Shown one piece after another: positions 2,054 to 44,784 of a stretch of DNA of 64,000 bases. The translations under genes and the position numbers were made by a program. The stretch comes from Acidobacteriota bacterium (lineage in GTDB: Bacteria; Acidobacteriota; Thermoanaerobaculia; Multivoradales; JBCCEF01): NCBI GenBank assembly GCA_039028635.1, contig JBCCHV010000001.1:186001-250000 (forward strand), read 5' to 3'. Each line of letters starts with the position of its first letter. Within the stretch, counting starts at the first letter, position 1. The notes beneath the pieces are model-generated. The model ran no database searches. It was not told where the DNA came from and saw only the letters and a list, made by a program, of their open reading frames with translations.

Positions 2054-3355
2054 GTGTTGCCCTCGCCGAGACGCGCTGCCGTCGGGATTCTCTGCCTGCA
2101 CGGCCTCCTGCAGGGGCTGCTCGGGTGGCTCTACTGCGCCGGTGGAGGCAAGGGCCTCGTTGGCGACGAGCAGACCTACCGGGCGGCGGCCGAGGCGATG
2201 GCGACCACCGGTCGCCTGGCCCTCGATCCGCTCTGGCCGCCGCTCTATCCCTGGCTACTCTCCCGGCTTTACCTCCTGCCGGGAGATCCCCTGGTCTGGA
2301 CCCTCGTTCTGCAGGCCCTGGCTGTGCCCGCCATCGTGTGGCTGTGGTGGCGTCTCGGCGAGCGTCTGACGGGCTCGGCGTCGGTGGCTGCTCTCGGCGC
2401 CACTGGATTGCTGCTCTATCCGCCACTCGTCGCCTACGGCCATTTTCTCTGGCCTGAGATCCTCCACCTCTTGCTGCTTAGCCTGGCTCTGTGGTTGCTC
2501 ACCGCTGCGGGCGCTACCTGGCGAAGCGCCCTCGCCGCCGGCGCCCTGCTCGGCCTCGCTTTGGGCGCCAAGGCTCTGCTGCTGGGCTTCCTGCCGGTAC
2601 TGGTCCTCCTGCCAGCCCGTGCCGAGGGTTCGAGACCTTGGCCCTCGCTGATCGCGCTGGCCGCCGCCGTGGCGCTCTTGGCGTCGCCTTGGACGCCGTG
2701 GGCGCGGGCCCACAGCTCTCCGGCAGTGGCCGGAAGCCTCGAGTTCAATCTGCGTCTGGGGATCGACCGCGAGGTCGGACGCGAGCGGTCCGGCGAGGCG
2801 GCATGGCGTCTGTTCCAAGCCATGGAGAAAGCCGAGGCGCGAGGCACCGGCCGCCGGGCCTTCTTGCGCCGGCAGCTCGCTGACGAGCTCGCCGAGCGCG
2901 GTCCCTGGAGCATCGCTCGCGACCAGCTCCAGCGACAATACTTCCGCTTGCTAGACCACCGCACCTTCTTCCACGATCAGCTTCCGACGGGGCCGCGCCA
3001 GGGGCCGGAGCGCGGTTACCAGGGGGTGCCCTCGGCAGTCGGCGCGGCGCTGCGCGTCGGCAGCTCGGCGATCTACCTCCTGATTCTGACGCTCACCCCC
3101 TTGGGGCTGCTCGCCTGGCGGCGAAGGGGGCAGGGGAGGTGGTGGCTCGTTCCGGCTTTTCTGGTTTACAACTTCCTGTTGTTCTTCGCCCTCTACGCGA
3201 TCTCCCGATACCGCATCCAGATGCTGCCCTTTCTGACCTTGACGGCCGCCCTCGGTGGCGCCGAGCTGAAGCGGGGTATGACAGCTCTGCCGGCGTGGGA
3301 GAAAGCCATCGCCTTGGCGGGAGCGGTTCTCTTGCTCTATCTCGCCTTGGGGTAG
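2054..3355 (+). CDS. GT-C family (GT39/ArnT-like) membrane glycosyltransferase
   Basis: A 433-residue polytopic membrane protein with about 9-11 hydrophobic helices. The first extracytoplasmic loop carries GDEQTY, which fits the acidic catalytic motif of GT-C enzymes that use polyprenyl-phosphate sugars (GT39, PMT/ArnT type). A second conserved-looking patch, 'PPLYPWLLS', follows about 30 residues later, as in this family. The start is a GTG. The likely role is transfer of a sugar from a lipid carrier to a lipid or protein acceptor on the outer face of the inner membrane. The acceptor cannot be read from the sequence and no glycan cluster surrounds it. Confidence 0.75.
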   Translation: MLPSPRRAAVGILCLHGLLQGLLGWLYCAGGGKGLVGDEQTYRAAAEAMATTGRLALDPLWPPLYPWLLSRLYLLPGDPLVWTLVLQALAVPAIVWLWWRLGERLTGSASVAALGATGLLLYPPLVAYGHFLWPEILHLLLLSLALWLLTAAGATWRSALAAGALLGLALGAKALLLGFLPVLVLLPARAEGSRPWPSLIALAAAVALLASPWTPWARAHSSPAVAGSLEFNLRLGIDREVGRERSGEAAWRLFQAMEKAEARGTGRRAFLRRQLADELAERGPWSIARDQLQRQYFRLLDHRTFFHDQLPTGPRQGPERGYQGVPSAVGAALRVGSSAIYLLILTLTPLGLLAWRRRGQGRWWLVPAFLVYNFLLFFALYAISRYRIQMLPFLTLTAALGGAELKRGMTALPAWEKAIALAGAVLLLYLALG

Positions 3356-3476
3356 GTCGGTCCGGTTTCGAACCGCGGAAGCGAGCGCAGCGCACCCTGG
3401 AGGAGGGGAAGGTTTGAGGATAGGCTTGAAGGGGAATCACGACTCGAAAATTTCGCAGGGAAGGGCCTTGACCGTT

Positions 3477-4040
3477 ATGGGACGCAGACTCGAACCGATC
3501 CTTGGAATCCTTGCCCTGCTGATCTTCGGAGGATTGCTGTCCGTGCCGGCGGCGGCCGCCTTCCGCGCCAACGTCACCCGCGCCGACGGCTTCTCGCCGC
3601 GACAGGTCCAGCGGGTGGTGGTGGCAACCCGTCAATGCCACGAGGTGGTCGACTGCAGCGCCATGGAGCAGCGGGTGGTGGGTGAGATGTTGGAGCTGGG
3701 GGTTCCCTTCGCGGTGGTGGCGGAGAGCCGGGTTCGAAAACACCTCTTCGAGCAGGGAACCCTCGAGTATGTGGTGGAGCAGCGGCAGAGCCTGGCGGAT
3801 GCCTTCGAGGCCGACGCCGTGCTCGAGCTCGCCGTGCCCTTTGCCGAGCGCGGTGACGGCTTCGGAGGTCGCCGGCGGTCGAGCGTCAAGGTCGAGATCT
3901 TCCTGCTACGGCCGGACGGCGAGCTCTTGCTTCACGGCGTCGGAACGGGAAGGCCCCTCAACGTCGTCAGCGGTCCCGAGCGGGTCACCGGAAACGTCGT
4001 CGAAACGATCTTGCGCAAGGCCTTCGGTAGCGGCGGCTAG
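3477..4040 (+). CDS. Secreted hypothetical protein
   Basis: A 187-residue protein beginning with a clear signal peptide (hydrophobic residues about 8-26, then VPAAAA before the mature part). I chose the ATG at 3477 because it starts this signal peptide directly; a TTG at 3414 preceded by GGAGGGG is in frame and would add 21 residues. The mature protein has two closely spaced Cys residues (RQCHEVVDC) that could form a disulfide, and a region resembling periplasmic lipoproteins that sense or scaffold (alternating beta and alpha, 'DAVLELAVPF'). I do not recognise the family. It ends 19 bases before the 3' end of the oppositely oriented tRNA gene. Confidence 0.6.
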   Translation: MGRRLEPILGILALLIFGGLLSVPAAAAFRANVTRADGFSPRQVQRVVVATRQCHEVVDCSAMEQRVVGEMLELGVPFAVVAESRVRKHLFEQGTLEYVVEQRQSLADAFEADAVLELAVPFAERGDGFGGRRRSSVKVEIFLLRPDGELLLHGVGTGRPLNVVSGPERVTGNVVETILRKAFGSGG

Positions 4041-43919: not shown

Positions 43920-44109
43920 AATCTTGCCGACAGTCTACCGTTCCGGCGCCGACGACTGAAGAAGCCTTGCGGCGACTCCGCGATCATGCAAGCGCGCAAT
44001 CAGCGAGGAATCAGGGGGTCGCCTTCTCTTCATTTCTCCGCGAATCTCGCAATTGGGGTTCGCTGCGCAGTCGGCCATGCCCTCCGTCCCGCCGTGCTAG
44101 CGTCGAGGA

Positions 44110-44784
44110 ATGGCAGTCGAAAGAGAGGTTCGGCTGGCGGTATATCGCCACTTCACGGACTGCGCAGCGGCGCCGACGGTGGCCGAGACGGCCAGGCGTA
44201 CCGGCTTGCCGGACAGGCAGGTGCGCACCGCCTACGGCGCCCTTGCCGAGCAGCGCATCCTGGTGCTCGAAGAGGATGGCGAGACCCTTCGCATGGCGCC
44301 GCCCTTCTCGGCGGTGGCGACGCCGCATGTCGCGACCATCGACGGCAGGAGTTACTTTGCCAACTGCGCTTGGGATGTTTTCGGCGTGGTCGCGGCTCTG
44401 GGTGGAGAAGGAGTGGTCGAGTCGCGCTGCGAGCACTCCGGGACAGCCCTCCGGCTCGAGCTTCGAGGCAACGGCCCCGAGGCCTCACCCTGGCGGTTTC
44501 ACTCCCTCCTTCCGGCCTCTCAATGGTGGCGAGACATCGTCTTCACTTGACAGAACATGGTTTTCTTCCGGTCGGAAGAAGCGCTCCAGAGCTGGTGTCG
44601 AGATGCTCGTCAGGCGCGCCGCCCCTGCCTCGGCCTCCCCACCCTCTGGCGCCTCGCCGAGGCCTGGTACGGCTCTCGGCTACAGCCCGATTGGCGGCGC
44701 TTCGAAGCGGCGGAGGTGCGGCAGCTGTTCGATCGACTCGGGATGGTCGACCCCTTCTGGGATCCTGCTACGAATCACAACTGA
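44110..44784 (+). CDS. Alkylmercury lyase (MerB)-like protein with in-frame UGA, probable selenoprotein
   Basis: A single frame interrupted only by TGA at 44548-44550 (codon 147). Read through, it gives 224 residues. An N-terminal winged-helix-like part (about 1-65) precedes a MerB-like domain. MerB (R831) uses C96, D99 and C159; here C86-A-W-D89 keeps the C-x-x-D spacing and C107 matches MerB C117 with the same 21-residue offset. The UGA aligns with the C159 region, followed by NMVFFRSEEA, which resembles MerB HVHFFASVPTA. The downstream residues (LPTLWRLAEAWYG) match MerB's EAFGLGQ-type helix. A SECIS-like hairpin starts 11-12 bases after the UGA. I infer selenocysteine at 147. A sequencing error or pseudogene is the alternative. 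Confidence 0.75.
44562..44581 (+). promoter_or_regulatory. Bacterial SECIS-like hairpin
   Basis: TTCTTCC (44563-44569) and GGAAGAA (44574-44580) pair perfectly around the tetraloop GGTC, with a T-G pair extending the stem. The loop starts 19 bases after the in-frame TGA. In bacteria SelB needs a short hairpin just downstream of the UGA, and the E. coli fdhF element also carries GGUC in its apical loop. Distance and loop both match. Confidence 0.7.

Follow-up and report, generated by a model that had tools for sequence, protein, structure and literature searches.

A probable MerB-like selenoprotein of Acidobacteriota and relatives with in-frame UGA at one or both metal-binding cysteine positions

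INTRODUCTION

The organomercurial lyase MerB (PF03243; structures 3f0o, 3f2f, and, for MerB2, 5c17) consists of a helical N-terminal part followed by a lyase core. According to published computations, Cys96 and Cys159 hold mercury between them, and Asp99 assists (PMC4525700). Selones, as small-molecule mimics of the lyase, act faster than the corresponding sulfur compounds (PMC11639659), and such synthetic compounds already serve as models for the role of selenium in carbon-metal cleavage. Among natural proteins, the 2026 catalogue of prokaryotic selenoproteins contains one MerB-like family, SaoL (NF040728; motif CU) (PMC13188914), and NF040728 is likewise listed in a 2022 review (PMC9312934). 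The criteria used for bacterial SECIS (bSECIS) elements are an apical loop of 3 to 9 nt, an upper stem of 4 to 16 bp, a G in the first two loop positions, a distance of 16 to 37 nt from the UGA, and a minimum free energy of −7.5 kcal/mol or lower (PMC13188914).

Here, we analyze a gene found in a 64,000-nt stretch of an Acidobacteriota genome (contig JBCCHV010000001.1, positions 186,001 to 250,000; below, the window). The assembly is 6.28 Mb in size and 95% complete. The encoded protein shares with MerB its fold, the order of its two parts, and the Cys96, Asp99, and Cys159 positions; it differs in having a predicted selenocysteine (Sec) in place of Cys159, the other Cys and the Asp being kept. 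In contrast to MerB, the Cys117 position is nonessential in the window subfamily, and a conserved C-terminal tail ends in LG..FW. Identity to MerB is ~18% over the structural alignment, and no mer operon was recognized at the window gene. Like SaoL, the protein is a MerB family member with a predicted Sec, but it scores 36.1 bits against the SaoL cutoff of 140 and has a T-U motif where SaoL has C-U. The Sec of SaoL is probably located at or beside the Cys159 column, since in one relative (L136) this column corresponds approximately to the last position of the 159-position SaoL model, a placement suggested by profile length. As in the E. coli FdhF-type bSECIS, a hairpin is located just past the UGA, has a G in the first two loop positions, and has its loop 19 nt away; unlike in bSECIS selenoproteins such as FdhF, the whole set of UGA-containing genes uses a single hairpin design at a fixed distance.

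RESULTS AND DISCUSSION

The window gene encodes a protein with a predicted MerB fold and active site

The frame of the window gene contains a single internal TGA, at codon 147, besides the terminal one (Table 1), and the internal TGA is directly followed by QNMVFFRSEEA. An in-frame TAG is located at 44098 to 44100, 9 bases 5′ of the ATG, which makes this ATG the first possible start in the frame; since GAGGA lies very near it, the exact start is slightly uncertain. The read-through protein matches PF03243 over residues 66 to 188 (E = 8.2e-25; 87.7 bits at a gathering cutoff of 27). The initial annotation, made from sequence without database searches, held that the two halves of the split frame belong to one family, and, indeed, the parts before and after TGA147 each match their own part of the Pfam MerB model (1.2e-12 and 1.2e-4). 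The scores are far below the strict cutoffs for organomercurial lyases (42.9 of 200 bits for NF033555 and 38.5 of 193 bits for PRK13239).

Table 1. Features of the window gene and selenocysteine machinery genes of the same genome.
Feature	Position	Strand	Basis
MerB family selenoprotein gene (predicted)	44110..44784	+	ATG frame read through UGA147 to TGA 44782-44784; 224 residues
UGA codon 147, predicted selenocysteine, equivalent of MerB Cys159	44548..44550	+	Family column TGA/Cys; alignment with 3f2g/1s6l
Cys86, equivalent of catalytic Cys96	44365..44367	+	Invariant in alignment of 47 members; UGA in two other clades
Asp89, equivalent of catalytic Asp99	44374..44376	+	Invariant in alignment of 47 members
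Cys107, equivalent of Cys117	44428..44430	+	Nonessential in UGA clade: some members have F, L, V, D, G, or S instead
Bacterial SECIS-like hairpin TTCTTCC-GGTC-GGAAGAA	44563..44580	+	Spacing fixed in three clades; compensatory pairs; codon choice
tRNA-Sec, anticodon TCA	C2:83322		73 bits; ARAGORN concordant
SelB	C21:11203		Adjoins SelA, same contig
SelA	C21:12872		E = 4e-130; adjoins SelB
SelD	C42:28839		279 bits at a cutoff of 125

AlphaFold2 gave a confident model of the window protein (pLDDT 95.9). In a Foldseek search, 5c17 was matched at E = 5.6e-11, and all 11 PDB matches below 0.001 were MerB or MerB2; the TM-scores against MerB2 and MerB crystal structures were 0.55 to 0.74. In the alignment with 3f2g and 1s6l, C86, D89, C107, and U147 fall on Cys96, Asp99, Cys117, and Cys159, in agreement with the earlier assignment of the first three residues by their MerB-like spacing and of the UGA, with NMVFFRSEEA downstream, to the Cys159 region. 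There is little doubt that the protein has a MerB-like fold and active site.

Proposed reaction and possible substrates

The fold and the active site point to carbon-mercury cleavage, and, by analogy with MerB, the window protein probably cleaves carbon-metal bonds. In the mechanism that we propose, SelB and tRNA-Sec(UCA), guided by the hairpin downstream of the UGA, would place Sec at position 147 during translation. As in MerB chemistry, an organometal compound, most likely R-Hg+, would then be bound through its metal by Cys86 and Sec147, Asp89 would protonate the carbon with release of R-H, and the metal would pass to cell thiols. Since a selenolate is ionized at neutral pH and binds soft metals more tightly, faster binding and cleavage would be expected. 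Arguing against a lyase are the low scores for the strict organomercurial lyase models, the lack of recognized mer operon genes beside this gene or shared by its relatives, and the Hg-Se bond, which could be strong enough to slow product release. For mercury as the natural substrate, we consider the chances about even.

Sec could also be inserted in a protein that acts on an organotin, organolead, organoarsenic, organotellurium, or endogenous compound, or that only traps metal. The genomic context is consistent with this possibility, since mer operon genes were recognized neither beside the window gene, which lies between a HEAT-repeat protein gene and a fatty acid desaturase gene on the opposite strand, nor as neighbors common to its relatives; the neighborhoods of the window clade have no mer or sel context in common. 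In about 20 Anaerolineales loci, a one-UGA MerB gene is located a few tens of bases 3′ of an HMG-CoA reductase gene (e.g., L113 4646-5968), and the family is spread widely among environmental bacteria in which exposure to mercury is not obvious. Yet, all three MerB catalytic positions are kept and the fold is that of MerB, and we therefore regard a different substrate or metal trapping as a less likely alternative to organomercurial cleavage.

The UGA codon is conserved at the Cys159 column

Apart from the window gene, a search of 59 related genomes recovered 15 full-length relatives, as well as a single partial hit. Of these 15 relatives, 13 contain exactly one internal stop, a TGA. A scan taking one genome per species yielded 80 loci. 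In the non-redundant set, the codon-147 column contained TGA in 56 sequences and TGC or TGT, found mainly in archaea and Chloroflexota, in nearly all of the other 33. Homologues thus carry UGA or Cys at this codon, the comparison that the initial annotation had proposed as a check. The earlier loci were then aligned with relatives from further searches. Of the 139 distinct family members in this alignment, 91 have UGA in the Cys159 column, most of these coming from Acidobacteriota and Chloroflexota, and most others have Cys. Outside this column, there were four read-through stops, of which three lie at protein ends, so that the concentration of UGA at one column exceeds chance. Identical UGA codons in dozens of other genomes exclude a read error at TGA147.

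One-UGA genes were found 18 times in 400 sampled Chloroflexota genomes and 15 times in 396 sampled Acidobacteriota genomes. Among the labels on records with UGA genes are Acidobacteriota, Chloroflexota, Planctomycetota, Verrucomicrobia, Gemmatimonadetes, and Deltaproteobacteria, some of them doubtful: the contig with the “Deltaproteobacteria” locus L092 appears to belong to G005, a genome from the window’s own order.

In an alignment of 47 members, P22, L45, P65, N85, C86, W88, D89, W139, C/U147, and W217 are invariant. The MerB-like catalytic set suggested initially therefore stands for C86, D89, and U147; Cys107 falls outside the conserved set, as it is replaced in approximately one-fifth of UGA forms.

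Several loci deviate from this pattern. L078 and L080 were rejected as Cys forms because of frameshifts or deletions near the site, and L115 (CGC at the site, split alignment) was left out. In L078 (1661-2206), a deletion takes out the UGA while the downstream hairpin is kept, reflecting either decay or an assembly error. In L206 (1327 onward, + strand), which is possibly a decayed paralogue, Trp takes the place of Sec and the first Cys is displaced (YYGCSAWD). A MerB family match at G343:C30:238-606 has an internal TAG instead of TGA. The tree branch of the window gene (L207) is 0.81 long, ~3 times the 0.27 of its nearest relative, and the gene is absent from G001, the other genome of the window’s genus.

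A SECIS-like hairpin follows the UGA codon

The 7-bp hairpin with a GGTC loop that the initial annotation had noticed 12 bases downstream of TGA147 is present (Table 1), spans bases 12 to 30 after the UGA, and is conserved among UGA homologues. With its 4-nt GGUC loop, 7- to 8-bp stem, 19-nt distance from the UGA, and −13.6 kcal/mol (49 nt), it lies within the bSECIS limits. Since its folding energy alone is not significant (z = −0.72), the case for the hairpin is based on conservation and covariation.

The register between the UGA at the Cys159 column and the hairpin is identical in all UGA members. In the 91 UGA genes, whose relatedness means that counts of pairs and codons are not independent events, the loop is GGUC in 75, AGUC in 15, and GUUC in 1. 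The closing pair is C-G in 80, U-A in 8, and A-U in 1, while pair 18-31 is C-G in 87, G-C in 3, and U-A in 1, with no mismatches. Pairs 18-31 and 22-27 thus vary in a compensatory manner in a hairpin that is nearly invariant in nucleotides. The Ser codon within the hairpin is TCG in 81 genes and TCA in 8, the latter being the eight with the U-A pair, compared to 27 and 11% elsewhere in the same genes; the Arg codon is CGG in 65 of 67, compared to 22% elsewhere. Codon choice is thus governed by the hairpin.

When 53 of these sequences were assessed, the hairpin ranked above all 500 shuffles by every measure. Paired cells made up 93.5% in the hairpin and at most 65.5% in slid controls, one of which had a higher covariation score than the hairpin. 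The Cys homologues compared had no such hairpin. In our judgment, the UGA set is unusually uniform in hairpin design.

Selenocysteine machinery is encoded in the same genome

All the sel genes that the initial annotation had listed for a search, selA, selB, selD, and tRNA-Sec, were found in the genome (Table 1). Since selA is present in 57 of 59 genomes of the window’s order, co-occurrence is uninformative there, and wider genome sets were used. SelA was found in 51 of the 54 UGA-gene genomes compared to 34 of 54 genomes with non-UGA MerB genes only (Fisher p ~1e-4, an indicative value, as the groups were set by hand from tables and the genomes are related). The three exceptions among UGA-gene genomes, G059 (a SelA fragment), G063, and G593, are all drafts. 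Judging from these sequence data, the window gene almost certainly encodes a genuine selenoprotein, with Sec inserted at position 147.

Reading of the UGA as Trp or Cys through general or local recoding would agree with Cys at the same column in archaeal and other homologues and with Trp in one relative, L206. However, of the tRNAs examined, only tRNA-Sec has a UCA anticodon, whereas the anticodon of the tRNA-Cys detected is GCA; SelA is present in nearly all UGA-gene genomes; and the hairpin resembles a SECIS and goes together with UGA genes. We consider such recoding extremely improbable. The same holds for a true stop at UGA147, leaving a pseudogene or two open reading frames (146 and 75 amino acids): under table 11 the frame does end there, and an ATG follows 6 bases further on, but the same UGA and hairpin recur in 91 distinct homologues, both halves are conserved throughout, and the split would cut one domain inside the active site.

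Relation to cataloged selenoproteins

The initial annotation had called the protein a new selenoprotein. “Selenoprotein” is upheld, while “new” has to be qualified, as SaoL, a MerB-like selenoprotein, had already been cataloged. The window subfamily was not found in the 2026 catalogue, although MerB-like selenoproteins are not wholly unknown. No sequences above the SaoL cutoff were found in the 400 Chloroflexota genomes. NCBIfam contains no specific model for the window subfamily, whose members are consistently matched only by general MerB models. Our search of the literature on MerB or organomercurial lyase with selenocysteine, which covered a minority of the subscription papers, revealed no account of the subfamily or of a double-Sec form, an absence that is not proof. 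Since standard annotation would truncate the genes at the UGA, the family is likely missing from surveys of both mercury detoxification and selenoproteins.

Some relatives have UGA at both metal-binding positions

The most surprising part of the family is formed by relatives in which selenium apparently occupies both reactive positions. Twelve genes from Chloroflexota and Acidobacteriota, which form two clades, have UGA at both the Cys96 and Cys159 columns, and each UGA is followed by a SECIS-like hairpin. Clade B consists of L141, L132, L135, L212, L213, L219, L215, and L214 (three Chloroflexota and five Acidobacteriota) and has the motifs A-U-A-(E/I/V)-D-A and (F/Y)-U-...-FFWSEEHAR. Clade C consists of four Chloroflexota genes (L142, L178, L177, and L176) with the motif Q-U-G-(F/L)-(D/E); L183, a relative of this clade, retains a Cys at the first of the two sites. 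All 13 sequences (the 12 double-UGA genes and L183) match Pfam MerB, and a clade B model (pLDDT 87.6) has a MerB-like fold (E = 1e-11). The hairpin after the first UGA is GCCCTT-CGTGC-AAGGGC in clade B, with a compensatory change from C-G to U-A in L219, and is weaker and G-U-rich, with a (C/A)GU.. loop, in clade C. On the tree, whose details are unsure because of long branches and the artifact rows L078 and L080, Sec at the first site requires two changes and at the second site at least six.

It would be very unusual for one active site to bind its metal through a pair of Sec residues. The family may represent, with roughly equal odds for and against, a large uncataloged class of selenium-dependent organometal(loid) lyases of environmental bacteria, with two forms in which both metal-binding Cys are replaced by Sec, such that a pair of selenolates would hold the metal (Sec-M-Sec), and with a substrate that is perhaps not mercury. 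The natural series of Cys/Cys, Cys/Sec, and Sec/Sec forms at one active site would allow a direct test of the benefit of selenium in carbon-metal cleavage. In one genome, G684, selA and a selD-like gene lie next to a double-UGA gene, downstream of it and in the same orientation [L223 1-2447 (−) and 2999-3619 (−)]; a second selA is located elsewhere in this genome.
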